Shown piece after piece: positions 15,627 to 30,581 of a DNA stretch of 64,000 nt. Below the pieces are notes generated by a model. That model saw nothing but the letters and a program-made list of their open reading frames with translations, ran no database searches and was not told where the DNA came from. The position numbers and the translations under genes are program-made. The DNA is from Stappia sp. 28M-7. GTDB lineage: Bacteria; Pseudomonadota; Alphaproteobacteria; Rhizobiales; Stappiaceae. The number at the start of each line of letters is the position of its first letter. Position 1 is the first letter of the stretch. The DNA lies in assembly GCF_014252955.1 (NCBI RefSeq), contig NZ_JACMIA010000001.1, positions 3,928,258-3,992,257 of the forward strand, written 5' to 3'.

Positions 15627-16622
15627 ATGCCGATCTCCCGATTGTTGCTTCGCCTGGTGATCGTGGTGGCGATCGGCATCGCGGCCTATCTGCTCTACCG
15701 CACGCTCAGCCAGTATTCGCTCGACGAGATCATCGAGTCGGTGCGCGCCATTCCGGCCGCGCATCTTGCCCGCGCCTTCGGCTTTGCCGCCGCCTCCTAT
15801 CTCTGCCTCAGCTTTTTCGACTGGCTGGCCGTGCGCTATGCCGGCAAGCCGCTCGCCTGGCACCGCACCGCGCTTACCTCCTTCACCGCCCTGTCGATCG
15901 GCCACAATGTCGGGGTCGCGGCCCTGTCCAGCGGCGCGATCCGCTACCGCTTCTATGCGCGCTGGGGTCTCGGCGTCGGGGATGTGGCCAAGGTGATCCT
16001 GTTCTGCGGCATCACCGTCGGCCTCGGACTTGCGACGATGGGCGGGCTCGCCCTGTTGCTCTATCCCTCGACGGCGGAAGGGCTGATGGGCGTCAACGGG
16101 CCGGAGCTGAAGGGCATGGCGGTCGTCTGCCTGTCGCTGCCCCTGGCCTGGATCGTCCTCTCCGCCTTCGTGCGCGGCGAACTGTCGGTCCGCAAATGGT
16201 CGCTGACGCTGCCGCCGCTGCCGCTCGCCATCGGTCAGGTCGCGGCGGGCACCGCCAACTATGCCTGCGTCGCCGCCTGCCTGCACCAGCTGCTCGCCGC
16301 AACGTCGGAAGTGAACTATCTGGAAGTGGCGGCGATCTACGTGATCGGCATTCTCGCCTCGCTGATCAGCCACGTGCCGGGCGGGCTGGGCGTGCTGGAG
16401 GCAACCGTGCTCTATCTGCAGCCCGGCGCGGAAGCGGTCGGGGCATTGCTGGTGTTTCGCCTGGTGTATTTTCTGGTGCCGCTGGCGCTCGGCCTGCCGA
16501 CGCTGCTGGCGAGCGAGTATGTCCTGCGCTCACCGGAGAAACGCAAGCAGGGCAGGCGCAAGCCGGCAAAGGATGCGGATGTCCCTGCCGGGGCGACGAC
16601 CGCCGCCGACGGCCGCTCCTGA
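15627..16622 (+). CDS. Lysylphosphatidylglycerol synthase transmembrane-domain (MprF/YbhN-like) protein
   Basis: 331 residues with about eight membrane helices, matching the flippase-like domain of MprF and the UPF0104/YbhN family: TALSIGHNVGVAALSSGAIRYRFY in the middle, and LISHVPGGLGVLEATVLYL near the end. The catalytic aminoacyl-transferase domain of MprF is absent, so it is probably a lipid-translocation or membrane-integrity protein rather than a lipid-lysylating enzyme. The C-terminus is a basic, disordered tail. AAAGGG precedes the ATG. Its place after otsA and the EcfG promoter upstream suggest an envelope stress role. Confidence 0.8.
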   Translation: MPISRLLLRLVIVVAIGIAAYLLYRTLSQYSLDEIIESVRAIPAAHLARAFGFAAASYLCLSFFDWLAVRYAGKPLAWHRTALTSFTALSIGHNVGVAALSSGAIRYRFYARWGLGVGDVAKVILFCGITVGLGLATMGGLALLLYPSTAEGLMGVNGPELKGMAVVCLSLPLAWIVLSAFVRGELSVRKWSLTLPPLPLAIGQVAAGTANYACVAACLHQLLAATSEVNYLEVAAIYVIGILASLISHVPGGLGVLEATVLYLQPGAEAVGALLVFRLVYFLVPLALGLPTLLASEYVLRSPEKRKQGRRKPAKDADVPAGATTAADGRS

Positions 16623-16650
16623 TCCGCAGTGCCGAAAAACGGAAGGGATC

Positions 16651-16673
16651 GGGCCGGCGCGAGCGGCCGGCCC
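16651..16673. terminator. Stem-loop between convergent genes
   Basis: 8-bp GC stem (GGGCCGGC / GCCGGCCC) with a 7-base loop, between the 3' ends of the flippase-like gene and the 104-residue gene. There is no T-tract. Confidence 0.45.
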
Positions 16674-16680
16674 GTCAGGA

Positions 16681-16995
16681 TCACATGGCGTTGAGACGCA
16701 GCGCGATCTTGTTCAGCGCCTCGACCTTGGCCTCGGCGGAGCCGCCGGCATAGGCGGTCTCGAGCGTCTGCAGCAGATCGCGGAACTGCTCCAGCGCCTG
16801 GCCGGCGACGTCGAGCGTCAGCGGCTGGTCGTCATAGGCATCGACAAACGCCTGGGCCGCGCGAGACACCAGCAGCCAGGCAACGGCATGCTCCGGCTCG
16901 CCGGCGATACGCTCACGAGCCTCGCGCGCGCACGCCTCGAAGCTCCGCACGCTCGCGCTGTGCTCGTTCAGACCATTGGCAACCTCAATGAACAT
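16681..16995 (-). CDS. Conserved-looking hypothetical protein, all-helical
   Basis: 104 residues, Ala- and Glu-rich, with no membrane segment or signal peptide. The sequence looks like a three-helix bundle (blocks around 16-35, 38-60 and 62-98). GGGAG precedes the ATG. It lies directly downstream of pyrC in the same direction (46 bp), with a small hairpin between, so it could be the last gene of that operon or be independent. No family was recognised. Confidence 0.65.
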   Translation of the reverse strand: MFIEVANGLNEHSASVRSFEACAREARERIAGEPEHAVAWLLVSRAAQAFVDAYDDQPLTLDVAGQALEQFRDLLQTLETAYAGGSAEAKVEALNKIALRLNAM

Positions 16996-17020
16996 TACGC
17001 TCTCCCTTGAAGAGGACTGT

Positions 17021-17039
17021 GGCCGGCTTCCTGCCGGCC
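17021..17039. terminator. Short hairpin after pyrC
   Basis: Perfect 7-bp stem GGCCGGC / GCCGGCC with loop TTCCT, two bases past the pyrC stop. No T-tract on the minus strand, so it may be a 3' end stabiliser. Confidence 0.4.
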
Positions 17040-17040
17040 T

Positions 17041-18090
17041 TTACGACCTGCGGGCCGCGACCGTCCAGCGGACCGGCACCATGGGATCGAAAACCGTGAC
17101 CGTACCGTCGCCCGTCACCACCTTGTCCGGCACCGGGACCGGCTCCTCGCGCTTTTCCAGCACCAGCTGGCCCTCGTTCGGCGGCAGGCGGTAGAAGGCC
17201 GGCCCGTTGAGCGAGGCGAAGGCCTCGAGCTTGTCGAGCGCGCCCTCCTCCTCGAAGACATGGGCAAGGCAGGCCATCGCGTTCGGCGCGGTGTAGATGC
17301 CGGCGCAGCCGCAGCCGCATTCCTTCGCCGGATCCACATGCGGTGCCGAATCGGTGCCGAGGAAGAAGCGCGCGTCGCCCGAGGTCGCGGCCTCGCGCAG
17401 CGCCAGCCGGTGCTCCTCGCGCTTGGCCACGGGCAGGCAGTAGTAGTGCGGGCGGATGCCGCCGGCGAAGATGGCGTTGCGGTTGATCATCAGGTGGTGA
17501 ACCGTGATCGTCGCGGCGAGATCCTTCTCCTGCGAACGCACATACTCGACGCCGTTGCGCGTCGTCACATGCTCCAGCACGACGCGCAGGCCCGGAATGC
17601 GCCGGCGCAGCGGATCGAGCACCTTTTCCAGGAACACCGCTTCGCGGTCGAAGATGTCGACGTCAGGATCGGTCACCTCGCCGTGCACGCAAAGCGGCAG
17701 GCCGATCTCGGCCATGCGCTCCAGCACCGCGGTGACCTTGGAGAAGTCGCGCACGCCGCCATGCGAATTGGTGGTGGCGCCGGCCGGATAGAGCTTCACC
17801 GCCTTGACGAGGCCGCTGCGAAAGCCCGCCTCGACGTCGTCCGCCTCGGTGCCTTCGGTCAGATAGAGCACCATCAGGGGCGTGAAGTCGTGCCCCTCGG
17901 GCAGGGCGGCGAGAATGCGCTGGCGATAGGCTTCCGCCTGGGCGGTGGTGACCACCGGCGGCACGAGGTTCGGCATGATGATCGCACGCGCGAAATCGGC
18001 GGAGCTGTGCGGCAGGACGCCGGCGAGCATCGCCCCGTCGCGCAGGTGGAGATGCCAGTCGTCGGGCGTCCGGATCGTCAGCTGTGTCAT
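17041..18090 (-). CDS. pyrC: Dihydroorotase (E. coli PyrC type)
   Basis: Reversibly interconverts dihydroorotate and N-carbamoyl-L-aspartate. The 349-residue length matches E. coli PyrC. Zinc ligands: HLH (His13, His15), the carboxylated lysine Lys99 in AVKLYPAG, His in CVHGEV, His in LEHVTT, and the catalytic Asp in GTDSAPH. The ATG overlaps the stop of the upstream amidase gene by four bases (ATGA). It is the last of seven co-directional genes that start with a TRAP transporter, which is not a normal place for biosynthetic pyrC. That suggests use in the degradative direction. Confidence 0.93.
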
Positions 18091-19370
18091 GGCGCAACCA
18101 TAAGATATTGATGGACGATATCGGTGGCGGAAAGGAGATCGGGCAGCTCCATCGCCTCCTGCGGATTGTGCGAGCCGTTGCGATTGCGCACGAAGACCAT
18201 GCCGGCCGGCACGCCGGCGGCCGAGAAGACCGCCGCATCGTGTCCGCCGCCGCTCGCCATCACGAACGGCTCCTGGCCGACTGTCTCCATGGCCTTGCTC
18301 AGGCGCGCGACGAGACCGGCATCGCACAGGGCGGGGGCAACGCGCAACTCCTCGTCGAGCTCGAACCGCACTTTCCGGTCCCGCTCGATCTGCGCCATCT
18401 CCGTCTTCAGCAGGTCGCGCATCTCGTCCAGCACCCGGGCGCTCTGGCTGCGGATGTCGAGACTGAAGGACACCTGGTCGGGAATGCGCGTCATCGCGTG
18501 CTTTTCCGGGTCAGTGCCGACGATGCCGCTGGTCAGCACCAGATCGTCGCCCTTGGCGAGAATCGTTGCCCAGCTTTCGTCGAGCCGCACCAGGAGATCG
18601 GCCATGGCCAGCACCGGATCGCGGCGGAAGGCGCGCGGCACGGCGCCCGAATGGCCGGCCTCGCCGATGCAGCGCAGGGAGCGATAGCGGATGTTGCCGC
18701 GAATGCCCGACACCACGGCGGCCGGAACCGCCTTGCCGATCAGCAGCGGCCCCTGCTCGATATGCACCTCGAGATAGGCCTCGATCCGCGACAGGTCGAT
18801 CAGCGGCTTTCCGGCGCGCACCGGCGCCATGTCGATGCCGATGGCTTCCATATGCGCATCGAGCGTGCGGCCATCGCCCTTGTGGCGGGCGGCAAGGTCG
18901 GAGGCGGACAGCGTGCCGGTCAGCGCCTTGGAGCCGATGTAGCACGGGCCGAACCAGGCGCTTTCCTCGCCGCGCATGGCAAGCACATGCACCGGGAAGG
19001 CGAACTTGGCCCCCTCGCGCCGCGCCCGCACAAGGCACAGCAGACCGGCGACGACACCGGCGAGACCGTCGAAATTGCCGCCGAAGGGAACGCTGTCGAC
19101 ATGCGAACCGATGACCGTGTAGCGCTCCGCATCGCGGTCGCCCGGCAGGCAGAAATTGGCGTTGAGCCCGGCGTCGTACCAGACCTCCAGCCCCTCGCGA
19201 CGGGCGAAGTCCTCCAGGAAGGACAGCGTCTTCGTCTCGATGTCGGAAAAGGCCGGACGGCTGACGCCTTCCACGTCCGGCGACATGCGCGCGATCTCGT
19301 CGAAGAGGAAGCCGGCAAGGCGCAGCTCCTCGGCGCGGTCGTAGGCCCCGGACTTCCTCAGCGCGGTCAC
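18087..19370 (-). CDS. M20-family N-carbamoyl-amino-acid amidase (candidate ureidosuccinase)
   Basis: 427 residues of the hydantoinase/carbamoylase group of M20 metallopeptidases. Metal-site motifs: [19 protein letters not shown] (His, Asp), RGEES (Glu pair), LEVHIEQGP, and [13 protein letters not shown] near the end. The group removes a carbamoyl group to give amino acid, CO2 and ammonia. Placed between pyrD and pyrC, the likely substrate is N-carbamoyl-L-aspartate. Other carbamoyl amino acids, beta-ureidopropionate or allantoate cannot be excluded. The start is GTG at 19370 (GGAGG upstream), overlapping the pyrD stop by four bases. Confidence 0.88.
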
Positions 19371-20311
19371 GGTGCTGCCTCCATGAACACGACGCCCTCC
19401 TTCTGCTCCTCGTCGATCAGCGTGCCGATCAGGTCGCGGACGGACGAGAGCTTCTCGCGCTCCAGATAGCGCTCCAGCTCGGCGATGACGGTCACCATCG
19501 CGGTCGGATTGATGAAGGTGGCGGTGCCCACCTGCACGGCGGTGGCACCGGCGATGAGGAACTCGATCACGTCCTCGGCGGTGGAGATGCCGCCGCAGCC
19601 GATCACCGGAATGGTCGTCGACTTGGCGCACTGATAGGCCATGCGCAGGGCGATGGGCTTCAGCGAGGGGCCCGACAGGCCGCCCATCAGGTTGCCGAGC
19701 TTCGGCCGCCGGGTGCGGATGTCGATGGCCATGGCCAGCAGCGTGTTGGCGACGACCAGCGCGTCGGCGCCGCCTTCCTGCGCCGCGCGCGCCACTTCCG
19801 GCGTCTCGCCGGTGTTCGGCGTCAGCTTCGCCCACAGCGGCAGATGCGTCGCCGCGCGCAGCTTCTGCATCACGTCGTAAGTCGAGGAGGGACGGATGGC
19901 GAAGGCCTTGCCGTCTTCCTCGATGTTCGGACAGGAGATGTTGACCTCGATGGCGGCAACGCCCTCCACCGTCACTTCCGAGCACAGGCGAGCGAACTCG
20001 TCCGCCGTGTTGCCGGAGATCGAGACGACCAGCGGCGTCTCGTAGGCCTGGTAGAACGGCACCACCTTGTCGAGGAACGCGCCGACGCCCTTGCTCGGGA
20101 TGCCGATGGAATTGAGCATCGACGAACCGACCTCGCACACGCGCGGCGTCGGATTGCCGTCGCGCAGGCCCCGGGTGATCGTCTTGGTGACATGGGCGCC
20201 GAGGCACTCGATGTCGAAGACCTCGGCCAGTTCCTCCGAGAAGGTGCCCGAAGCCGGCATGATCGGGTTCTTCAGCGTCAAGCCGGCGATGTCGACGGAC
20301 AGGTCTACCAT
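19367..20311 (-). CDS. pyrD: Dihydroorotate dehydrogenase, class 1B catalytic subunit
   Basis: 314-residue FMN enzyme. Class 1 is shown by Cys127 as active-site base in NISCPNI (class 2 uses Ser), by ASGTFS near the start, and by GCGGISTAEDV and GATAVQVGTATF in the phosphate-binding part. Together with PyrK it forms the NAD-linked heterotetramer, which can run towards orotate reduction. Most alphaproteobacteria use a class 2, quinone-linked enzyme for synthesis, so this pair is probably an extra. AGGAGG precedes the ATG, and the start overlaps the pyrK stop by seven bases. Confidence 0.93.
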   Translation of the reverse strand: MVDLSVDIAGLTLKNPIMPASGTFSEELAEVFDIECLGAHVTKTITRGLRDGNPTPRVCEVGSSMLNSIGIPSKGVGAFLDKVVPFYQAYETPLVVSISGNTADEFARLCSEVTVEGVAAIEVNISCPNIEEDGKAFAIRPSSTYDVMQKLRAATHLPLWAKLTPNTGETPEVARAAQEGGADALVVANTLLAMAIDIRTRRPKLGNLMGGLSGPSLKPIALRMAYQCAKSTTIPVIGCGGISTAEDVIEFLIAGATAVQVGTATFINPTAMVTVIAELERYLEREKLSSVRDLIGTLIDEEQKEGVVFMEAAP

Positions 20312-21156
20312 GGCATGGCCTCCTGGATATCGAAGACGGGACCTTCGCGGCACACGCGCAGCTGCACGGTCTTGTCGCCCTTGCGGAACGGCCGGACGCA
20401 GCAGTGGCACATGCCCAGACCGCAGGCCATCTGCTGCTCCAGCGCGATCTCGCCCGGAATGCCGTGGCGCTTGCCGATGCGCTGCAACAGGGTCAGCAGG
20501 CGGTTGGAGCCGCAGGTGTAGAAGGCGTCGATGCCGGGATCCGCGATCCGCTCCTCGATCACCGTCTCCAGATGTTCGAGCGACGAGGTGCCTTCCGCGT
20601 CGGTGACCGGAACGATCTCGGCCCCCAGCTCGCGGAAATAGTCGATGGACATCAACAGGTCCGGATGGCGGGCGCTGCAGATCGCGGTCAGATGGCGGCC
20701 GAGGCGGTTGGCCTCCAGCGCCAGCGGCGCGAGCGTTGCAAGGCCGACGCCGCGGGCGACGAGCACCAGCCGCTGCCAGTCGTCGTCGATGCGGAAGCCC
20801 TGGCCGAGCGGACCCATGACGTTGAGCGCATCGCCCTCGCGCAGCTGGGCCAGCGCCCGGGTGCCGGCGCCTGCCACCTTGTAGAGGAAATGCAGCTCGC
20901 CGCGCTCGGGATAGAAGCCGTAGATGCTCATCGGCCGGCGCAGATAGGGCGTCTCGCCGCCGAGCACCGGGCACAGCAGGTTGAAGAACTGGCCGGCACG
21001 GCACAAGTCGAGCATCTCGCGCGGGGCGGCCAGGACGAGGCGCATGTACTCGCCGTTGACCGGATCGTTGGAGAGCACGTCGAGGTCCCGCTCGAAGACA
21101 ACGGGTTGCGGCCGTCCGCCGAGGGCGGACGCGGGTCTTGTCAGAACGCTGGTCAT
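20305..21156 (-). CDS. pyrK: Dihydroorotate dehydrogenase electron-transfer subunit
   Basis: 283 residues with the ferredoxin-reductase fold: the FAD site YLRRPMSIYGF (about residue 72), the nucleotide-binding ARGVGLATLAPL, and the C-terminal [2Fe-2S] ligands CGLGMCHCC plus the Cys in VCREGPVF. It passes electrons between NAD(H) and the FMN of PyrD. The N-terminus has about 20 extra residues compared with Gram-positive PyrK. The ATG overlaps the dctM stop by four bases, which ties the enzymes to the transporter genes. Confidence 0.93.
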   Translation of the reverse strand: MTSVLTRPASALGGRPQPVVFERDLDVLSNDPVNGEYMRLVLAAPREMLDLCRAGQFFNLLCPVLGGETPYLRRPMSIYGFYPERGELHFLYKVAGAGTRALAQLREGDALNVMGPLGQGFRIDDDWQRLVLVARGVGLATLAPLALEANRLGRHLTAICSARHPDLLMSIDYFRELGAEIVPVTDAEGTSSLEHLETVIEERIADPGIDAFYTCGSNRLLTLLQRIGKRHGIPGEIALEQQMACGLGMCHCCVRPFRKGDKTVQLRVCREGPVFDIQEAMPW

Positions 21157-22439
21157 CCGAACACCAGATTGGGCAGGAAGGTGGAGATCGACGGGATGTA
21201 GGTGATGATCCCGAGGGCCACGAGATTGGCGATCACGAAGGGCCAGATGCCGGAAATGATCGTCATCACCGGCTTGCCGAGCGTCGAGGACGCCACGAAC
21301 AGATCGAGCCCGAAGGGTGGCGTGATCATGCCGGCGGAGATGTTCAGCGTGACGATCATGCCGAAATGCACCGGGTCGATGCCCATCGCCATCGCCACCG
21401 GGTAGAGCGGCGGCACGAGGATCAGCAGCGCCGAATTCGGATCGATGAACATGCCCGCGATCAGGAAGACGACGTTGACCACCAGCAGGAAGACGATCGG
21501 TCCCGCATCGACGGCAGCCAGGAACTCCAGGATCTGCCCGGGGATCTGCGCCAGCGTGATGAAGTAGGAGAGCAGGCCGCCGAGCGCCAGCAGGATGAAG
21601 ATGATGGCGGTGGACACGGCCGCCCGCTCGGTCACCTTGAACAGCTTCTTCAAGGTCAGCTCGCGGAACACCACCATCTCGACGAAGATGGCGTAGACGA
21701 CGCTGACGGCAGCGGCCTCGGTCGGGGTGAAGACGCCCGAATAGATGCCGCCGAGGATGATCGCCGGCATGCCGAGCGCCCAGCCGGAATGCGCCACGGC
21801 GCGCAGACGCTCGCCCCAGGACGTGCGCTCGCCGGCCGAAACCCCGGCGCGGCGCGCCTCGATGGCGACCATGATGGCGAAGACGAGGCCCAGCACCAGG
21901 CCGACCGCCATGCCGGCGACGAACAGGCGCGCGACCGAGGTGCCGGTCATCCAGCCGTAGATGATGAAGGTGATCGACGGCGGGATCAGCAGCGCCGTCT
22001 CGGCGCTGGAGGCGATGAGGCCGAGCGAGAACTTGTCGCTGAAGCCGGCCTTGCGCATTTCCGGATAGACCAGCCGGCCCATCGCCGCCACCGTCGCCGG
22101 CGCCGAGCCGGACACGGAGCCGAAGGCCATCGAGCCGCCGACGATGGTGTAGCCGATGCCGCCCTTGCGATGGCCGAGCAGCGACTGGACGAGGCTGGTG
22201 AGACGGCGGGCGATCTGGCCCTCGCCCATCAGCTCCGCCGCCAGGATGAAGAAGGGAATGGCGAGCAGCGTCGAATGATTGATGCCGCCGACGATCTTCT
22301 GCACCACGACCGGATCCGGCAGGGTGCCGTAGAAGAACTGCTTGACCAGAAGCGCCGGCACGCCGAGCACGAGAAACATCTCGAAGCCCGCGATCAGCAG
22401 CACCACGGCAAGCGCAACGATGAGGAAGAGAAGAATCAT
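21153..22439 (-). CDS. dctM: TRAP transporter large permease (DctM family)
   Basis: 428-residue polytopic protein with about 12 helices; it carries out Na+-driven solute import with DctQ and the DctP binding protein. Family marks include the opening LLFLIVALAVVLLIAGFEMF, GSVSGSAPATVAAMG and LLIPPSITFIIYG in the middle, and MITPPFGLDLFV near the end. ATG at 22439 overlaps the dctQ stop (ATGA), and its own stop overlaps the pyrK start. Substrate specificity cannot be read from the sequence; the downstream enzymes point to orotate or a related ureido acid. Confidence 0.93.
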   Translation of the reverse strand: MILLFLIVALAVVLLIAGFEMFLVLGVPALLVKQFFYGTLPDPVVVQKIVGGINHSTLLAIPFFILAAELMGEGQIARRLTSLVQSLLGHRKGGIGYTIVGGSMAFGSVSGSAPATVAAMGRLVYPEMRKAGFSDKFSLGLIASSAETALLIPPSITFIIYGWMTGTSVARLFVAGMAVGLVLGLVFAIMVAIEARRAGVSAGERTSWGERLRAVAHSGWALGMPAIILGGIYSGVFTPTEAAAVSVVYAIFVEMVVFRELTLKKLFKVTERAAVSTAIIFILLALGGLLSYFITLAQIPGQILEFLAAVDAGPIVFLLVVNVVFLIAGMFIDPNSALLILVPPLYPVAMAMGIDPVHFGMIVTLNISAGMITPPFGLDLFVASSTLGKPVMTIISGIWPFVIANLVALGIITYIPSISTFLPNLVFG

Positions 22440-22972
22440 GCCTCGTCGGCCTCCCGTGCCGGCGTGCGATCGATCAGCCCGAGGAAGCTCAGCAGGTAGC
22501 GCAGGGCAAGCAGCCCGAAGCCGACCAGGGGCGCGACATAGATCCAGCCCATCTTGAGGCCCAGGGTCGGGCTTTTCTGGCCGGACCCGAAGACGAACAG
22601 CGTCATCTTCCAGGCGAGCCAGACGAGATAGAGCGAGAAGAGGAAGCCGACGGCATCGATGATGCGCTGGACCGGCAGGTGGGTCGCCTCGGCGATGCGC
22701 GTGCGCCAGGTATCGACGGCGACGTGCCGGCCGATTTCGAGCGCATAGCCGAGCGCGAGGAAGACCAGATAGAGGTTCATCAGGCGGACCGCCTCCTCGA
22801 TCCAGCCGAGGCTGGAGGCAAGGGGACTTCCCGAGGCGCGAACCAGGACGTTGACGAAGTAGAGCCCCGCCATCGTCAGAAAAATCGAGACGAGTGCGCA
22901 CCGTTCGACGGTGCGCAGGACCGAAAGAGCACTGCGCATAGATTTGCTCCAGACATCCGCCGCAAGGGCCAT
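22436..22972 (-). CDS. dctQ: TRAP transporter small permease (DctQ family)
   Basis: 178 residues with four predicted helices. The second helix region has the LGWIEEAVRLMNLYLVFLALGYAL pattern (W-x-E-E-x-x-R) and GRHVAVD typical of DctQ. ATG at 22972 has GGAGGA upstream; a second ATG at 22939 is also possible. It overlaps dctM by four bases. A 333-bp gap with a strong hairpin separates it from dctP. Confidence 0.88.
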   Translation of the reverse strand: MALAADVWSKSMRSALSVLRTVERCALVSIFLTMAGLYFVNVLVRASGSPLASSLGWIEEAVRLMNLYLVFLALGYALEIGRHVAVDTWRTRIAEATHLPVQRIIDAVGFLFSLYLVWLAWKMTLFVFGSGQKSPTLGLKMGWIYVAPLVGFGLLALRYLLSFLGLIDRTPAREADEA

Positions 22973-23260
22973 CCCGTCCTCCGCCGGACGGTGATCAGGA
23001 CGATACCTGCGGGCGCGGTCCGAACCGCGCGGACAACCAGGTCGGTACTGACGCCGGCCGATACGGCCCGGATCGCCTTCGCCCGCCGCGAGCGGAGAAC
23101 GGAAAGGCAGGAACGGGCGGCATCCTGGGCCGCGTGTCCGCCGCGGACAGCGGCAGAGAAAAAGCTAGGGCCTTGTCCTGCCCGCACCGCCATGGAGCCT
23201 CAGGGCACCGGTTGCGGCAGGCAGAAAGATGTCCCCCCAAGATCGGCAGGCAACGAGCCT

Positions 23261-23294
23261 GCCTGCGGGCGCGGTCCGGGCCGCGCCCGCGGGC
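23261..23294. promoter_or_regulatory. GC-rich hairpin in the dctP-dctQ gap
   Basis: 14-bp stem GCCTGCGGGCGCGG / CCGCGCCCGCGGGC (one G-U or mismatch) with a 6-base loop, starting 11 bp past the dctP stop (stop at 23306-23308). The rest of the 22973-23305 gap shows no gene. It probably protects the dctP mRNA end or limits read-through so that binding protein exceeds permease. Confidence 0.6.
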
Positions 23295-23305
23295 AACGCC
23301 AACGA

Positions 23306-24328
23306 TTACTTGGTAACCGTAGCGTATTCCTGCTCGTACAGGTTCACCAGCTCGAGGCCTTCCTCGCCGGCGCCCTGGATGTAGGCGTTACGGGCTGCCG
23401 GATACATGGCATCGCGGAACGCGGCCTTCTCCTCAGCCGAGAGCTCGCGCACCTCGACGCCGGCTGCCTTGATCTCTTCCAGCGAAGAGGCGACGGAGGC
23501 CTTCTTGTGGGCGATCAGGTCCGGGATGACCTCGGCGAAAGCGTCGGTGATGATGGTGCGGTACTCTTCCGGCAGACCGGCCCAGAAGGTCGGGTTGAAG
23601 AGGATCACGTCCTCCATCGCGCCGTGGTTGGAGAGCACCAGGTACTTCTGCACCTCGTAGAACTTCATCGCGCGGATGGTGTCGAGCGGGTTCTCCTGGG
23701 CATCGACGACGCCGGTCTGCAGCGAGGTGTAGAGCTCGCCGAAGGGCAGCGCGATGGCCGAAGCGCCGACCGCCTTGAACTGCTCGATCAGGATGCTGGA
23801 ATCCATCACGCGGAACTTCTGGCCGGAGAAGTCTTCCATGCTCGCCAGCGGCTTGCTGGAGGAGAAGTTCTTACGGCCGTTCGGCCAGAGCATCAGGCAC
23901 TCGACGCCGCGGCTCTGGAAGGACTCGCAGAGCGCCTTGCCGAACGGGCCGGTGCGCAGCTCCTGGGCCTTGGCATCGTCTTCCGGCAGCAGGAAGGGAA
24001 TGTCGAGGATCGACACGACCGGGTTGAAGCCGCCGAGGAAGGCAGCCGGAGCGACGGTCGCCTCAAGCGAACCGAGCTGCACGCCCTCGGTCATCTCGCG
24101 CTGCTGGCCGAGCTGGCCCTGCGGGAAGATCTGGAACTCGACGGCGCCGTTGGTGCGCTCGGCGACCAGTGCAGCGACCTTTTCCAGGTGCACGTGGCGG
24201 GACTGCTGGGTCGACTCCAGATGGCCGATCTTGGCGACGAAATCCGCCGCGAAGGCACCGGCCGAGAAGGCGACGCCAGCGACGGCGAGCACGGCCGTCG
24301 CGGCCAGATTACGAACAGTATGTGTCAT
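23306..24328 (-). CDS. dctP: TRAP transporter substrate-binding protein (DctP family)
   Basis: 340-residue periplasmic binding protein with a signal peptide of about 27 residues ending AFA. DctP-family features: HVHLEKVAALVAERTNG, the binding-site Arg in GQKFRVMDS, FGELYTSLQTGVVDAQENPLDTI, and YLVLSNH. GAGGTGGAG lies upstream of the ATG. It is first in the operon dctP-dctQ-dctM-pyrK-pyrD-amidase-pyrC. It faces a divergent XRE-type regulator across an operator-like region at 24440-24466. Confidence 0.93.
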   Translation of the reverse strand: MTHTVRNLAATAVLAVAGVAFSAGAFAADFVAKIGHLESTQQSRHVHLEKVAALVAERTNGAVEFQIFPQGQLGQQREMTEGVQLGSLEATVAPAAFLGGFNPVVSILDIPFLLPEDDAKAQELRTGPFGKALCESFQSRGVECLMLWPNGRKNFSSSKPLASMEDFSGQKFRVMDSSILIEQFKAVGASAIALPFGELYTSLQTGVVDAQENPLDTIRAMKFYEVQKYLVLSNHGAMEDVILFNPTFWAGLPEEYRTIITDAFAEVIPDLIAHKKASVASSLEEIKAAGVEVRELSAEEKAAFRDAMYPAARNAYIQGAGEEGLELVNLYEQEYATVTK

Positions 24329-24422
24329 AGGGCTCCACCTCTAAGGCTAACAGGCACTGGATACGCTTTTGTTTCTTGGCGCGATACAGGCGCGGAAGGG
24401 AATAGCGTATTGAGCGATCCGG

Positions 24423-25487
24423 ATGCTGTCAACGACTCATCTCAAAAATGAGACAATTGGACAATTCATCCAAGAACTGATTATCATACCAGGAATTGAA
24501 CGGCCCGCTCCGGTCGACCGGCCACCGCGCCGGCACAGCCCGCGCCCAAGCCCACGGGACCCCGATTTGACCCAGGACGAAGACCCCATCCGGTTCAGCG
24601 ACATAGGCGCAAGGCTGAGGGCTCATCGCCTCGGCAAGGGCCTGACGCCGGAGGTCCTGGCGGAAAAGCTCGGCATCTCCCGCGCCGCCCTCTACCGGGC
24701 CGAGAAGGGCGAGATCCGCAAGATCGAGATGCTCACCTCCATCGCCGACGAACTCGGCGTGTCGCTGCCCAGCCTGCTGGGCGTCGGGGTGGAATATGTC
24801 AGCACCTCCATCGGCTTCTTCGAGCGCATGCGCCAGCTGGAGGACGACTGCCAGCAGATCATCGGCCTGTTCAGCCCCATGTCCTACCTGCTGACCTCCG
24901 ACGGCTACGACGACATCCTCAAGGAGGTGCTGCTCGAATCGATTCCCGAAGGCACGGATCCTTCGGGCGAGGCGGCGGAGGCGGTGGAACGCCTGCTGGA
25001 GATCCTGCATGCGCGAAAGGACGCCTTCCGCCTGCGCCGGCCGCTGATCGTCAGCCTGATCTCCTCGGCCGACCTGGAGCGGTTCCTGCTGCACGGGCTG
25101 ATCGGCCGGCACGACCTGTCGCCGGAGACGACCGACCATCGCCGGCTGATGGCGCGGCGCGAGGCCGAGTATCTGCTGTCGATGCTGCGCGACCAGCCCA
25201 TCGGCATCCAGATCGGCATCGTGCGCGGCCCGGTGCCGGCAACCAGCTTCCAGATCTTCCGCCAGACCAACCGCTCGGTGCTGGCGATCAGCCCGTTCCG
25301 GCTCGGCGAACAGCCGAATGTGCGCCTTGGCGTGGCCTTGATCACCTCGGCCGCCGAGGCGATGAGCCTACACGAGGACATCGCCGAACGCCTGTGGGGC
25401 GACGCCCTCAAGGGCGCCGAGGCGATCGCCTATCTGGAAGCGATGATCGAGAAATACGCGATCGCGGAGCCGTCCGCCTCGCGCTAG
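24423..25487 (+). CDS. XRE-family transcriptional regulator of the TRAP/pyr operon
   Basis: Up to 354 residues. A helix-turn-helix of the XRE type covers about residues 58-110 (IGARLRAHRLGKGLTPEVLAEKLG, then SRAALYRAEKG). The C-terminal ~240 residues are a probable ligand-sensing domain that I do not recognise. The first ~48 residues are poorly conserved in style and overlap the operator-like repeats. A TTG at 24567 with GGAC upstream would give a 306-residue protein and may be the real start. Its divergent position makes it the likely regulator of the orotate-type operon. Confidence 0.78.
   Translation: MLSTTHLKNETIGQFIQELIIIPGIERPAPVDRPPRRHSPRPSPRDPDLTQDEDPIRFSDIGARLRAHRLGKGLTPEVLAEKLGISRAALYRAEKGEIRKIEMLTSIADELGVSLPSLLGVGVEYVSTSIGFFERMRQLEDDCQQIIGLFSPMSYLLTSDGYDDILKEVLLESIPEGTDPSGEAAEAVERLLEILHARKDAFRLRRPLIVSLISSADLERFLLHGLIGRHDLSPETTDHRRLMARREAEYLLSMLRDQPIGIQIGIVRGPVPATSFQIFRQTNRSVLAISPFRLGEQPNVRLGVALITSAAEAMSLHEDIAERLWGDALKGAEAIAYLEAMIEKYAIAEPSASR
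24440..24466. promoter_or_regulatory. Two operator-like inverted repeats between dctP and its regulator
   Basis: TCTCA-N4-TGAGA (24440-24453) and AATTG-GA-CAATT (24455-24466) sit side by side in an AT-richer patch about 110 bp before dctP. They would be natural binding sites for the divergent XRE-type regulator. Confidence 0.5.
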
Positions 25488-25523: not shown

Positions 25524-26246
25524 CTAAGGAAGTACGGGGGCGGACAGCGCCGCCAGGCACTCCTCGTCCGAGCGCCGCTTGCCCTTCTGCCGCGCGGACG
25601 GCCCCGCCTGCAGCCCGTTCTCGGGCAGGGCGAGCGAGCGGTTGATCACCAGGATATGCTCGCGCAGCAGGGCATGGGCCGCATCGAACTCGCGGCGCAC
25701 GATGAGATCGCGCATCTCCACATGCTCGGAGAAGGACCGGCTCCAGAAATTGCCCTCGCCCGATTGCAGCCGCGCGCGCAGCGCCTCCAGCGCCGTGGCG
25801 GTGAGGTCATAGGCCTTTTCCAGGAAGCGGTTGCCGGCCATCTGCAGGATGACCCGGTGATAGGCGCTGTCGGCCCGGCTGTAGAGCCACCATTCACCCA
25901 CGTCGATGGCATGCTGCATCTGCGCGATAGCCCCGTTCAGCCGGTGCACCAGCGCGTCCGGGTCGCGCGCCAGCGCATCCTGCAGCGCCTCGCGCTCCAG
26001 CATCGCGCGAAAGCGGCTCATCTCCGCAACATCCTGCCGCGAGGGCGTGACCACATAGGTGCCGGCCTGCGGCACGATGGTGACGAGCCCCATGTCGCGC
26101 AGATCCATGAAAGCCGCTCGCACCGGCGCCTTGCTCATGCCCAGGGCCCGGGCGATCTGTTCTTCCGACAGCCGCTCGCCGAACTCGAACTTGCCCGACA
26201 CGATGGCATCGCGCAGCCGCTCGCAGGCCTCCTGAGTGAGTGACAA
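25524..26246 (-). CDS. GntR-family regulator, FadR/FCD type
   Basis: 240 residues if the TTG at 26246 is the start; AAGGAG lies just before it and upstream in-frame codons look non-coding. A winged helix-turn-helix (about residues 4-65: ERLRDAIVSGKF, GERLSEEQIARALGMSKAPVRAAF, GTYVV) is followed by an all-helical FCD domain with RADSAYHRVI carrying metal-binding residues. Such regulators sense organic acids. It is divergent from the dehydrogenase-TRAP operon, with an 18-bp perfect palindrome between, so it is probably its repressor. Confidence 0.88.
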   Translation of the reverse strand: MSLTQEACERLRDAIVSGKFEFGERLSEEQIARALGMSKAPVRAAFMDLRDMGLVTIVPQAGTYVVTPSRQDVAEMSRFRAMLEREALQDALARDPDALVHRLNGAIAQMQHAIDVGEWWLYSRADSAYHRVILQMAGNRFLEKAYDLTATALEALRARLQSGEGNFWSRSFSEHVEMRDLIVRREFDAAHALLREHILVINRSLALPENGLQAGPSARQKGKRRSDEECLAALSAPVLP

Positions 26247-26357
26247 AGCTCTCTCCTTCCCGGTCCGGTCGCAGTCCCATCGCGGATGAACAAGCCTGAG
26301 ATCACCTGATTTCCGGACTTTTTCAAGCGCGATAAAAACCGTTTGACATTCCATGAA

Positions 26358-26375
26358 ATTCTAGAATTCTAGAAT
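26358..26375. promoter_or_regulatory. 18-bp perfect palindrome, probable GntR operator
   Basis: ATTCTAGAATTCTAGAAT lies in the divergent gap between the GntR gene and the dehydrogenase operon. A TTGACA (26343-26348) just beside it could be the -35 element of the plus-strand promoter, so binding would block it. Confidence 0.65.
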
Positions 26376-26423
26376 AGAAACGTCAACAACCAATCGCGTC
26401 TCGAGAACTCCAAGAGGTTCCCC

Positions 26424-27461
26424 ATGTCCCGCCTTCGCCTGCTGACCCCCGACGCCCAATACCCGGATGACGCCCTGATCGAGAGGGCAACGGCGGGCGA
26501 CGAGGTCGACTGGGACATCCACCGGGAGCGCAGCTTCGACCGGCTGCCCGATGCGGTGCTGCGCGGCTGCGATGCGATGGTGGTATGGCACGAGATGCCG
26601 GTGACGCGCGAAATGATCGCCCGGCTGGAGCGTTGCCGCATCATCGTGCGGGCCGGCGTCGGCTTCGACCATATCGACCTGGACGCGGCGGCGGCTGCCG
26701 GCATCCCGGTCTGCAACACCCCCGACTACGGCACCAGCGAGGTGGCCGACCACGCCATCGCCCTGATGCTGACCCTGCGCCGCGGCATCGGCTCCTATCA
26801 CCGCAACCTGATGGCCTCGCCGCAGGAGGGCTTCGACCATGCCCGCGCCCCGCTGCTCGCCCGCCTGAGGGGCAAGACCTTCGGCGTCGTCGGACTGGGC
26901 CGCATCGGCATCGCAGCGGCGCTGAGGGCAAAGGCCTTCGGCATGCGCGTGCTCGCCTATGACCCGCTGGTCTCGCGCGGCACGGAGATCGCCGCCGGCG
27001 TCGACCGCTGCGACCGGCTGGAGGAGCTGCTGGCGCAGGCGGACGTGGTCAGCCTGCACTGCCCGCTGACCCCGCAGACGCTGAAGATGATCAATGCGGA
27101 GCGCCTGGCGCAGATGCAGCCGCACGCGGTGCTGATCAACACCGCCCGCGGCGCCATCATCGACATGGACGCGTTGCTCGAGGCGCTGCGCAAGGGCACC
27201 ATCGCCGGCGCCGGCATCGACGTGCTGCCGGTCGAGCCGCCCTCGCCTGCGGACGCCATCGCCCTTGCCTATGCGAACGGTGCCGACCCCATCGTCGGGG
27301 AGCGCCTGTTCGTCACCCCGCATGCCGCCTGGTCCAGCCCGGAAAGCGTCGCCGATGCCCGCCGCCTGTCGGTGGAGACGGCCATGCAGTTCCTGCGCGA
27401 GGGACGGCTGCGCAACCTGGTGAATTCGCCTGTCGCGACACCGCTGAGCGGCGTCGCCTGA
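26424..27461 (+). CDS. D-isomer-specific 2-hydroxyacid dehydrogenase
   Basis: 345 residues. NAD-binding Rossmann motif FGVVGLGRIGIAAALRAKAFGM (G-x-G-x-x-G), then the catalytic Arg in LINTARGAIID, Glu in GIDVLPVEPP and His in VTPHAAW. Members reduce 2-oxoacids or oxidise D-2-hydroxyacids in the cytoplasm; the subgroup resembles C-terminal-binding-protein-like dehydrogenases and the substrate is unknown. It is first in an operon with dctPQM, a GMC oxidoreductase and an FAH-family hydrolase, so it probably acts on an acid imported by that TRAP system. Confidence 0.9.
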   Translation: MSRLRLLTPDAQYPDDALIERATAGDEVDWDIHRERSFDRLPDAVLRGCDAMVVWHEMPVTREMIARLERCRIIVRAGVGFDHIDLDAAAAAGIPVCNTPDYGTSEVADHAIALMLTLRRGIGSYHRNLMASPQEGFDHARAPLLARLRGKTFGVVGLGRIGIAAALRAKAFGMRVLAYDPLVSRGTEIAAGVDRCDRLEELLAQADVVSLHCPLTPQTLKMINAERLAQMQPHAVLINTARGAIIDMDALLEALRKGTIAGAGIDVLPVEPPSPADAIALAYANGADPIVGERLFVTPHAAWSSPESVADARRLSVETAMQFLREGRLRNLVNSPVATPLSGVA

Positions 27462-27473
27462 CGTGGCAGACTG

Positions 27474-27490
27474 CGCGGGAAACACCCGCG
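27474..27490. promoter_or_regulatory. Small hairpin between dehydrogenase and dctP
   Basis: CGCGGG-AAACA-CCCGCG, 12 bp after the dehydrogenase stop; no T-tract. Confidence 0.35.
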
Positions 27491-27545
27491 ACACGATCCA
27501 AGGACATGGGATCATGACAAACATGTCCGCCCTGGGAGGAAAACC

Positions 27546-28562
27546 ATGAGAAAGACGCTTGCAACCGCCATCCTGGCGACCGGCCTTCTGGCCGGCACCG
27601 GCGCCCTGGCACAGGAGTTCGAGTTCAAGTTCCAGTCGGTCGACCCGGCCGGCAACCCGAACTTCGCCATCCAGCAGGCCTGGACCGAGCGGGTGAAGGA
27701 AATGTCCGGCGGCCGTCTCGTGATCGAGCTGCTGCCGGTCGGCGCGGTCGTCGAATACAACGAGACGCAGGACGCCGTCGGCGCCGGCATTCTCGACGGC
27801 CACATCACCGACGTCAGCTACTTCTCCGGCAAGGACCCGGCCTTCGGCCTGATCGCCAACCCGACCGGCGCCTGGTCGTCGCCCGACGAGATGTTCCGCT
27901 TCATCAACTATGGCGGCGGCCACGAGCTGATGAACGAGCTGGAAAACCCCTATGGCCTGCGCTTCATCGGCGCCACCACGACGGGCCTTGAGGGCTTCGT
28001 CTCCGCCCGTCCGCTCGACGGTGTCGACGACCTCAAGGGCCTCAAGGTCCGCGCGCCCGAAGGCCTGATCCAGGAAGTCTTCGCCGCGGCCGGCGCCGTG
28101 CCGGTGAACCTTCCCTATTCGGAGGTCTACACCGCGCTCGACAAGGGCGTGATCGATGCCGCGGACTCCACCGTGTTCTCGACCAACCACCAGCAGGGCC
28201 TGCACAAGGTGGCGCCGCACCCGGTCTATCCCGGCTTCCACTCCATGCCGCTGGTCGAGGTGTCGATGAACCTCGACAAGTGGAACGCCCTGCCGGCCGA
28301 CCTGCAGGCGATCCTCACCGTGTCGGTCCGCGACTTCGCGCAGGACTCCGTCGCCATCCTGTCGATGAACGACCTGAAGACCTTCGCCGAAGCCTCCGCC
28401 GATCCGAACATCACCGTCCATAACTGGCCGGCCGAGGAGCGCGCGCGCTTCCGCACCATCGCCATGGACCAGTGGGCCAAGATCGCCGACCGCTCGGACA
28501 ATGCCCGCAAGGTCTACGATACGCTGACGACCTACCTGAAGAGCCAGGGCCTGCTGAACTGA
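27546..28562 (+). CDS. dctP: TRAP transporter substrate-binding protein (DctP family)
   Basis: 338 residues with a 22-residue signal peptide ending ALA-Q. Contains FQSVDPAGNPNFAIQQAWTERV at the mature N-terminus, the binding Arg in LKGLKVRAPEG, and PYSEVYTALDKGVIDAADSTVF. GGGAGGAAAA precedes the ATG. The ligand is unknown; the neighbouring dehydrogenases suggest a hydroxy- or keto-acid. A strong hairpin follows the gene. Confidence 0.92.
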   Translation: MRKTLATAILATGLLAGTGALAQEFEFKFQSVDPAGNPNFAIQQAWTERVKEMSGGRLVIELLPVGAVVEYNETQDAVGAGILDGHITDVSYFSGKDPAFGLIANPTGAWSSPDEMFRFINYGGGHELMNELENPYGLRFIGATTTGLEGFVSARPLDGVDDLKGLKVRAPEGLIQEVFAAAGAVPVNLPYSEVYTALDKGVIDAADSTVFSTNHQQGLHKVAPHPVYPGFHSMPLVEVSMNLDKWNALPADLQAILTVSVRDFAQDSVAILSMNDLKTFAEASADPNITVHNWPAEERARFRTIAMDQWAKIADRSDNARKVYDTLTTYLKSQGLLN

Positions 28563-28578
28563 GGCAAGGCCCGCATGA

Positions 28579-28605
28579 CCCGGGCGCGCCGACCGCGCGC
28601 CCGGG
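28579..28605. promoter_or_regulatory. GC-rich hairpin in the dctP-dctQ gap
   Basis: Perfect 11-bp stem CCCGGGCGCGC / GCGCGCCCGGG with a CGACC loop, 16 bp after the dctP stop. It occupies the same position as the hairpins in the other two TRAP operons of this window. Confidence 0.6.
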
Positions 28606-28660
28606 CGATGCGCAAGACAACGTCCCGACAGCACCGTGCACCAGAGCGGAGTGGCACCCC

Positions 28661-29260
28661 ATGTCCGAAGCCCCGGACCCGCGTCCCGACATCGCCGGCA
28701 TCGCCAGCCCTCCCGCCAGGCGGCTCGAACACCTGCCGGAAGCCGGACGGCTCGGCTGGGCGATCACCCGGATCGCGCGCCTTTTCGCCGTCGGCATCAT
28801 CATTGCCATGGCGGTGCTCGTGCTGGAGATCTTCCTGCGCTACGTCTTCAACTCGCCGACCACCTGGGCGCACGAGACGACGACCTTCCTCAGCGCCCTC
28901 ACCTTCATCTTCGGCGGCCTCTACTGCGTGGCCCGCAACAGCCATATCCGCGTGGTGCTGATCTACGACATCGTCGGCAAGCGCCTGCGCAACCTGCTCG
29001 ACGTGCTGATCTCCCTCGCCTGTCTCGGGGCCAGCCTGTTCTTCGCCTGGGCCGCCTGGCTGATGGCGAGGAAGGCGGTCTACCGCCCCGACGGCAGCTT
29101 CGCGCTGGAAACCAGCGGCAGCGCCTGGAACTCGCCCGCCCCGGCGGTGCTGAAAGTGTTCCTGTTCGTCGTCCTCGTGACGATGAGCCTCCAGTTCCTG
29201 GTCCTCACCTTCAATTACCTGCGCGGCCTTGCAAGGCCTGAGAGGCAGACCGATGCTTGA
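28661..29260 (+). CDS. dctQ: TRAP transporter small permease (DctQ family)
   Basis: 199 residues: a hydrophilic N-terminus of about 30 residues, then four helices. FLRYVFNSPTTWAHETTTFLSA and NSHIRVVLIYD are typical DctQ features (R-Y-x-F-N-x-P, W-x-x-E). GCGGAGT lies upstream of the ATG at some distance. It overlaps dctM by eight bases. Confidence 0.88.
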   Translation: MSEAPDPRPDIAGIASPPARRLEHLPEAGRLGWAITRIARLFAVGIIIAMAVLVLEIFLRYVFNSPTTWAHETTTFLSALTFIFGGLYCVARNSHIRVVLIYDIVGKRLRNLLDVLISLACLGASLFFAWAAWLMARKAVYRPDGSFALETSGSAWNSPAPAVLKVFLFVVLVTMSLQFLVLTFNYLRGLARPERQTDA

Positions 29261-30581
29261 CCTTCTCGACCTCGGCCTGAACCTGAAGGCGCTCGGCATC
29301 GAATACGGCACGGTGGTGCTGTTCGCCCTGCTGGTGGTGCTGCTGCTGACCGGCATGCCGCTGGCGCTGGTCACCCTGCTGGTGGCGCTGGTCTTCGCCA
29401 TCGGCTGGTTCGGTCCCAACTCCGTGCCGCTGATCACCAGCCGCGTCTATTCCTTCGTCTCCTCCTTCGTCTTCGTCTCCGTGCCGATGTTCGTGCTGAT
29501 GGCGGCGATCCTCGACCGCTCCGGCATCGCCCGCGACCTGTTCGACGCCATGAAGCTCGTCGGCGGGCGCCTGCGCGGCGGCGTGGCGGTGCAGACCGTC
29601 TTCGTCGCGGTGATCCTGGCGGCGATGAGCGGCATCATCGGCGGGGAGATCGTGCTGCTCGGCCTCGTCGCGCTGCCGCAGATGCTGCGCCTGGGCTACG
29701 ACCGGCGCCTGGCCATCGGCGTCGTCTGCGCCGGCGGCTCGCTCGGCACCATGGTGCCGCCCTCCATCGTGCTGATCATCTACGGCCTGACCGCCAACGT
29801 CTCGGTCGGCGAGCTGTTCACCGCCGCCTTCGTGCCGGGCTTCATGCTGGCCGGCCTCTATATCGGCTACATCCTGTTCCGCTCCTACACCGATCCCACG
29901 GTCGCGCCCCCGCCCCCCGACGAGCGCCCGTCGCTTTCGGAAATGCTGCCGCTGCTGCGCGGCCTCGTCCTGCCCGTGCTCGTCGTCTCGGTGGTGCTCG
30001 GCTCGATCTATGGCGGCATCGCCTCGGTGACGGAGGCCTCGGCCATCGGCGTTGCCGGCGTCATCGTCTCGACGATCCTGCGGCGCGAGTTCTCCTTCTC
30101 CATGCTGCTCGACGCGGCCATGCACACGCTGGCGACCGTCGGCATGATCATGTGGATCGGCATCGGCGCCAGCGCGCTGGTCGGCGTCTACAATCTGATG
30201 GGCGGCATCCGCTTCATCTCCTCGCTGATCACCGGCGTCTCGGACTCGCCCACCGTCATCATCCTGCTGATGATGGGCATCCTCTTCGTGCTCGGCATGT
30301 TCCTGGACTGGGTCGGCATCGCGCTGCTGACCATGCCGATCTTCGTGCCGATCGTAATCAGCCTCGGCTACGACCCGGTCTGGTTCGGCGTGCTCTTCGC
30401 CATGAACATGCAGGTGTCGTTCCTGACGCCCCCCTTCGGTCCGGCCGCCTTCTATCTCAAGAGCGTGACGCCGCCGGAGATATCGCTCGGCGAGATCTTC
30501 CGCTCGCTGGTGCCCTTCATCTGCCTGCAGGTCCTGGCGGTGGCGATCCTGATCCTCTTCCCCGGCATCGCCCTCTACTGA
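29253..30581 (+). CDS. dctM: TRAP transporter large permease (DctM family)
   Basis: 442 residues and about 12-13 helices. Family elements include [39 protein letters not shown], and [15 protein letters not shown] near the end. The ATG at 29253 overlaps the dctQ stop and follows GAGAGGCAG; a TTG 24 bases earlier is less likely. It imports the operon's unknown substrate with Na+. Confidence 0.92.

Follow-up and report, generated by a model that had tools for sequence, protein, structure and literature searches.

A putative TRAP-linked operon for uptake of orotate and its degradation to aspartate in Stappia sp. 28M-7

Clostridium (Zymobacterium) oroticum ferments orotate via orotate reductase, dihydroorotase and ureidosuccinase to aspartate, NH3 and CO2. 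To our knowledge, this breakdown pathway is known mainly from one anaerobe. The same three reaction types make up the reductive uracil pathway (PreA/PreT, dihydropyrimidinase, beta-ureidopropionase), and the class 1B PyrD-PyrK of Lactococcus lactis is biosynthetic. Here, we analyse a stretch of 64,000 nucleotides from the marine bacterium Stappia sp. 28M-7 (contig NZ_JACMIA010000001.1, positions 3,928,258 to 3,992,257; in the following, the window). It contains an operon that very probably serves uptake of orotate, which cells form on the way to pyrimidines, and its degradation to aspartate, ammonia and CO2. The operon comprises dctP, dctQ and dctM, which encode a tripartite ATP-independent periplasmic (TRAP) transporter, as well as pyrK, pyrD, an M20 carbamoylase gene, pyrC and a gene for a protein of 104 amino acids, all encoded on the minus strand between 24328 and 16681.

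In the proposed mechanism, DctP would capture periplasmic orotate for import by DctQM. PyrD-PyrK would then reduce orotate to dihydroorotate with NADH (reduced nicotinamide adenine dinucleotide, NAD), PyrC would open the ring to yield N-carbamoyl-L-aspartate, and the M20 enzyme, probably aided by the 104-residue protein, would release aspartate, ammonia and CO2. A first-pass annotation of this DNA had described a TRAP-pyrK-pyrD-M20-pyrC chain with overlaps of 4-7 base pairs and a divergent XRE-type regulator. Frames and junctions confirm it: the seven genes from dctP to pyrC are each an open reading frame on the minus strand, and the overlaps at the dctQ-dctM-pyrK-pyrD-M20-pyrC junctions measure 4, 4, 7, 4 and 4 base pairs. 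dctP and dctQ are separated by 333 base pairs, and a gap of 45 base pairs precedes the 104-residue gene, which that annotation had overlooked; its gene list was thus right for the genes it named and incomplete. Operon proteins were assigned to families based on Pfam and NCBIfam profiles with curated cut-offs.

An indication of the substrate comes from DctP (23306..24328, minus strand; PF03480). Its best match in the PDB is 4nn3 (E 1.2e-135, 455 bits), followed by a structure with E 6.7e-51 and 177 bits, i.e., 4NN3 is the nearest solved relative by a wide margin. In the available excerpts of two papers, 4NN3 is described as bound to orotic acid (PMC11668362) and orotic acid is listed among newly found TRAP ligands (PMC5812351). 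An orotate TRAP receptor type is therefore already known, and the window's DctP is its close relative and hence a predicted orotate receptor. The first-pass annotation had not known of any description of a TRAP system tied to this pathway. As to the receptor, orotic acid binding is on record in the excerpts of the same two papers; concerning the operon, no account of it was found among the PubMed Central matches listed, with subscription literature only partly covered. The two permease genes are dctQ (22436..22972, minus strand; small permease, PF04290) and dctM (21153..22439, minus strand; large permease, PF06808, with TIGR00786 over its cut-off). We consider it very unlikely that the transporter takes up dihydroorotate, N-carbamoylaspartate or some similar ureido acid instead of orotate. 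The same enzymes would then act from a later step, and a relative of the 104-residue protein does occur in a ureide-type cluster (L097, see below). But this alternative would leave PyrK and PyrD superfluous, and both the relation of DctP to 4NN3 and the orotate phosphoribosyltransferase-like gene of related operons speak for orotate.

Regarding the first enzymatic step, PyrK (20305..21156, minus strand) carries an Fe-S (iron-sulfur) domain above the Pfam cut-off (PF10418), and all NCBIfam PyrK models shown fall below theirs. Its cysteines 245, 250, 253 and 269 do not vary across an alignment of 14 sequences, the window's among them, and presumably hold the Fe-S cluster. PyrD (19367..20311, minus strand) exceeds the cut-offs of the pyrD sub-1 family models NF005574 and TIGR01037, and its best PDB match is 1ep1, the PyrD subunit of a dihydroorotate dehydrogenase B (E 2.2e-71). 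The curated PyrD models, the PyrK Fe-S domain and the 1ep1 match uphold the initial assignment to class 1B. That is, the pair is a putative NAD-linked class 1B enzyme, here predicted to run as orotate reductase.

The genome contains three DHO_dh members, namely a quinone-linked PyrD2, the window copy and PreA. PyrD2 is the second, class 2 enzyme for which a genome search had been suggested; it is located at C1:1100257 (L001; NF003645, 502 bits with a cut-off of 366). A purely biosynthetic reading of the window genes was rejected since this separate PyrD2 exists. That biosynthetic pyr genes are merely grouped by chance with a transporter is extremely improbable: such a grouping would agree with the lack of a recognised active substitute for PyrC in the genome, but PyrD2 lies elsewhere, the gene order is conserved, the enzyme cluster also occurs on Klebsiella plasmids, and the M20 carbamoylase would destroy a biosynthetic intermediate. 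A chemically parallel set of PreA, a dihydropyrimidinase and another M20 carbamoylase is found at C3, separate from the operon. Other surroundings of pyrK and pyrD were observed as well. In L176-L179, XRE, pyrK and pyrD genes occur together with a polysaccharide-deacetylase-like gene in divergent orientation; there is no M20 or pyrC match, and this is possibly another use of the reductase. On a Paroceanicella plasmid (L088, 6112-12120), a pyrK-pyrD pair lies amid ring-hydroxylating dioxygenase, cupin and asparaginase genes.

To assess conservation, we used 35 related loci from one PyrK scan of public genome contigs, which are close relatives by design. The operon proteins share 96-100% identity with their counterparts in S. 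indica SBBC 49 (L011) and only 53-81% with those in another record called S. indica (L026). In 34/35 loci, dctP, dctQ and dctM precede pyrK-pyrD (exception L037), so that the TRAP-pyrK-pyrD order is kept in the gene-order comparison that the first-pass annotation had proposed. The M20 gene is present in 34 of the 35 (in pieces in L021), and pyrC is within the operon in 23, two of which are truncated where their contigs stop. Of the 35 operons, 21 include a pyrE-like gene, with L022 and L026 showing a match frame of 58 amino acids only; six loci have pyrE but no pyrC and six have neither (of the latter, L040 is cut by a contig end). The pyrE-like gene of the module is also found on plasmids.

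These pyrE-like genes raise the alternative of orotate salvage, i.e., the transporter feeds the synthesis of uridine monophosphate while PyrK, PyrD, PyrC and M20 trim a surplus or work in the synthetic direction. PyrC being the only dihydroorotase with intact motif recognised in the genome would likewise agree with it. Salvage is nevertheless unlikely, because it has no need of an NAD-linked PyrK-PyrD or a decarbamoylating M20 enzyme, synthesis is served by the separate PyrD2, and the window's own operon is without pyrE. Import of orotate and its conversion to aspartate, as inferred in the first-pass annotation, is in turn favoured by the DctP-4NN3 relation, the separate class 2 PyrD, the pyrE-like gene in relatives and the occurrence of the enzyme core with other transporters.

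The M20 protein (18087..19370, minus strand) matches the hydantoinase/carbamoylase amidase family TIGR01879 with 252 bits (cut-off 204). In a midpoint-rooted tree, 59 M20 proteins from orotate loci form one clade against 23 background rows. Here, the broken M20 of L021 is left out of the 59, three of the background rows are one protein, and a second M20 of L023 from outside its orotate operon is in the tree but counted in neither group. Ten residues (H90, D101, E135, E136, H203, H240, R249, R307, H377, H401) are found in 59/59 orotate-locus proteins and 23/23 background rows. R133, R224 and R395 are likewise present in 59/59 orotate-locus proteins, while the background shows T, Q and P at the respective positions in 20, 19 and 21 of its 23 rows (R395 in one); many of the 59 are closely related, so these counts are not independent. 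Additional arginines might serve to bind carbamoylaspartate by its second carboxylate. The M20 enzyme is a candidate ureidosuccinase, i.e., N-carbamoyl-L-aspartate amidohydrolase.

The small gene (16681..16995, minus strand) closes the operon and is found in 31/35 related loci. In L015, L016 and L040 the contig stops before the gene would be reached, and in L043 it is absent. Pfam and NCBIfam searches at E values up to 10 gave no match for the window's protein and only weak ones below cut-off for relatives. Its AlphaFold2 model is a confident all-helical bundle (predicted local distance difference test, pLDDT, 89.5) for which a fold search against the PDB gave no match at E 0.001 or better. 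In two Agrobacterium plasmids (L083, L093) and in Neorhizobium (L095), the small protein forms the C-terminal part of a protein of 552-555 amino acids and is thereby fused to M20. In an order-wide sample it occurs in 28/397 genomes, 22 of which carry it within about 1.5 kb of orotate-module genes. The six exceptions belong to one genus, and no orotate genes were seen near the unlinked copies in wider stretches of five of the six genomes. Because of fusion and linkage, our best reading is that the small protein would be a partner of the M20 enzyme. A class-wide sample has the protein in 4/385 genomes. Several observations speak against a general role. Only 2 of the 11 genomes of the class-wide sample with a PyrK match above 300 bits possess it; the copy of G048 lies about 10 kb from pyrK; and L084, L094, L172 and L181 have M20 but no small-protein match even with a profile. 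Given this patchy occurrence, we regard the protein as a frequent, not universal companion.

Relatives of the small protein were also observed in other contexts. In L099, L158, L159, L160 and L171 (one genus), they are located away from orotate genes. The L099 relative adjoins an arginase-family gene, a relative of which is not seen in L158, L159, L160 or L171. In the ureide-type cluster L097 (7136-16910), which comes from one of the four class-wide genomes with the protein, the relative lies beside genes for a cyclic amidohydrolase, a D-glutamate cyclase-like protein, a binding protein of ATP-binding cassette (ABC) type and a ureidoglycolate lyase-like protein.

PyrC (17041..18090, minus strand; TIGR00856 427 bits, cut-off 293) is the sole class II dihydroorotase of the genome. 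A class I gene beside pyrB (L005, G000 C1:2873145) exceeds the cut-off of the NCBIfam dihydroorotase PRK09059 (695.5 bits vs. 645), and its HxH metal motif reads GVT. Since the HxH pair of this pyrB-adjacent gene is not intact in 9/9 genomes (L005, L212-L219; L212 retains the first His), its product was ruled out as a working dihydroorotase. L006 and L007 are dihydropyrimidinases over cut-off. Among the five TIGR00857 loci of the genome, none apart from a dihydropyrimidinase has the HxH motif, and 0/5 show D-x-Q-x-H-x-R-E-P. That is, apart from the operon's PyrC no dihydroorotase with intact metal motif was recognised in this genome, and the search for a second one, which had been proposed along with that for pyrD, gave none. 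The first-pass annotation had taken a genome with no other pyrD or pyrC to mean that the window holds the biosynthetic copies; one half of this applies, i.e., PyrD2 exists and a second active-looking dihydroorotase was not recognised. Because another pyrD is present but no other dihydroorotase with intact motif was recognised, PyrC is probably shared with biosynthesis, i.e., it probably also serves the biosynthetic direction. Dihydroorotase is reversible, and the degradation pathway does not strictly call for a second copy.

The same question was studied in relatives. Within 33 of the 35 genomes with orotate loci, 28 possess a class II gene that exceeds the cut-off (26 with one copy, two with two), and class II matches in the remaining five are partial, split or weak. 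In the window's family, a class II gene passes the cut-off in 21/41 genomes, and the other 20 show weak TIGR00856 matches only; a motif search in weak matches found no D-x-H-x-H. With the looser D-x-[HQ]-x-H, a further dihydroorotase-like protein is found in 11/11 loci examined (L263-L273). In nine of the 20 weak-match genomes as well as in G819, the protein under the match carries D-x-Q-x-H-x-R-E-P; these proteins look like another class I dihydroorotase, which we take to be the family named PRK09060. The statement of a sole dihydroorotase is confined to the window's genome; the TIGR00857 search of the relatives identified amidohydrolases below cut-off only partly. Within the genus, 8/10 genomes (window's included) have only the class II match; the two others are G823 (L272), with both types, and G819, with the class I-like type alone. 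This distribution suggests that the biosynthetic step passed to the operon's PyrC and that an older dihydroorotase gene was displaced and lost.

The pyrK-pyrD-M20 core is not bound to the TRAP transporter. It adjoins a major facilitator superfamily (MFS) gene in eight loci (L046, L047, L084, L085, L096, L161, L162, L163), and in L083 an MFS gene is near the core with two genes between. In the other Agrobacterium plasmid (L093), nucleoside-type ABC genes are found upstream instead, and in L167, L169 and L172 the core is near probable ABC transporters (assigned by 25-32% identity only). Core and MFS gene occur together on plasmids of Klebsiella, Pseudomonas, Roseomonas and Variovorax and in three genomes of the same order. 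Among Klebsiella plasmids, 53 records share a nearly identical cluster of 7.2 kb (MFS, pyrK, pyrD, M20, pyrC, XRE, small gene). Of these, 49 contain 80% or more of a 14.2 kb stretch including lac genes (reference L046, 10302-24500). The given source is milk or mastitis milk for 9/53, and a megablast search of the collection detected the cluster in none of its E. coli genomes. Milk is known to contain orotate, and an orotate module beside lactose genes and partly from milk would fit a dairy niche.

The regulator is encoded divergently to dctP. Between both genes lies the palindrome TCTCAAAAATGAGA (24440..24453, no strand), a candidate operator. Its pattern TCTCA-N4-TGAGA has one match in the window (0.02 expected) and a single exact copy in the 5.13 Mb genome. 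In 27/35 loci, an exact copy is located 61-113 base pairs before dctP and followed by TTGAC 6-7 bases later; the loci are related, so descent accounts for part of this conservation. The pattern is also present in L083, L093 and L095 and occurs twice each in L167 and L169, two loci with probable ABC transporters. L035, L037 and L044 have second copies distant from the operon start. A consensus scan of 16500-24700 gave no minus-strand promoter, so that neither an internal pyrC promoter nor a dctP promoter was called; by eye, the dctP -35 box reads TTGACA next to the palindrome. On the palindrome's other side, the window has a promoter-like site for the XRE gene.

The first-pass annotation was correct about a divergent XRE-type regulator; the start of its gene is revised here. 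Palindrome and promoter-like site are both located between an ATG at 24423 and a TTG at 24567, i.e., within the extra stretch of the longer call, and relatives mostly have 292-333 amino acids (one has 377; some are split in frame calls). The TTG is thus the more probable start, which gives a protein of 306 amino acids (24567..25487, plus strand; Pfam HTH_31/HTH_3). Its AlphaFold2 model (pLDDT 86.4) shows a C-terminal alpha/beta domain that is weakly phospholipase-D-like according to Foldseek (best E 5.3e-5, low TM-scores, TrmBL2 among the matches). Judged by adjacency, the XRE protein probably controls the operon via TCTCA-N4-TGAGA, i.e., it would act through the palindrome beside the dctP -35 box. 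Beside the operon, at 25524-30581, the window has another set of TRAP genes, accompanied by a D-2-hydroxyacid dehydrogenase and by a GntR/FCD regulator in divergent orientation.

A number of points weigh against orotate degradation by this operon. The pathway is predicted from the genes, i.e., we infer its substrate, the reaction direction, the M20 specificity, the role of the small protein and the pairing of regulator and operator. KNF, the lysine motif tied to 4NN3, is found by text match in 31/44 operon DctPs (window included); its lysine may correspond to position 152 of the paper, where it would replace the usual second arginine. The M20 protein is below every NCBIfam equivalog cut-off shown, that of allantoate amidohydrolase AllC included (25 of 27 families), so its substrate assignment rests on genomic context. 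The M20 clade has a support of only 0.666 in a tree with midpoint rooting and 23 background rows, 21 of them distinct. L043 has TRAP-pyrK-pyrD but no M20 at the locus; its genome has M20-pyrC-pyrE on a separate contig (L048). PyrC is not a dedicated catabolic copy, and the exact palindrome is absent in 8/9 MFS-type loci read.

Beyond the pathway itself, we tentatively propose a wider picture that we hold to be possible but rather less likely than its negation. Herein, the M20 subfamily would be the ureidosuccinase gene and would work with a new family of small helical partners, fused to it in Agrobacterium and Neorhizobium. The catabolic PyrC of Stappia would have replaced the biosynthetic dihydroorotase and run both ways, such that it would fall to the partner or the XRE regulator to prevent the amidase from depleting the biosynthetic intermediate. 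For the classical orotate pathway, concrete genes are now proposed, among them one that may encode the ureidosuccinase. Three ideas thereby become directly testable: that orotate enters through a TRAP system, that a new family of small proteins is tied to a carbamoylase, and that a single dihydroorotase serves both synthesis and breakdown.

As far as the searched literature reaches, novelty lies in the set of genes, in the proposed partner protein and in the suggested displacement of the biosynthetic dihydroorotase, while the chemistry is that of an old pathway. Compared to C. oroticum, the same three steps and products are predicted, but the window comes from an alphaproteobacterium, where a TRAP importer belongs to the set, together with a candidate operator, a putative ureidosuccinase gene and a small protein as proposed partner. 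The reductive uracil pathway has its own separate set in this genome, i.e., the one at C3; it differs by other families or subfamilies at each step and by a substrate without the carboxylate. With L. lactis, the window shares the class 1B type of PyrD-PyrK, but here the pair exists beside a second, class 2 PyrD.

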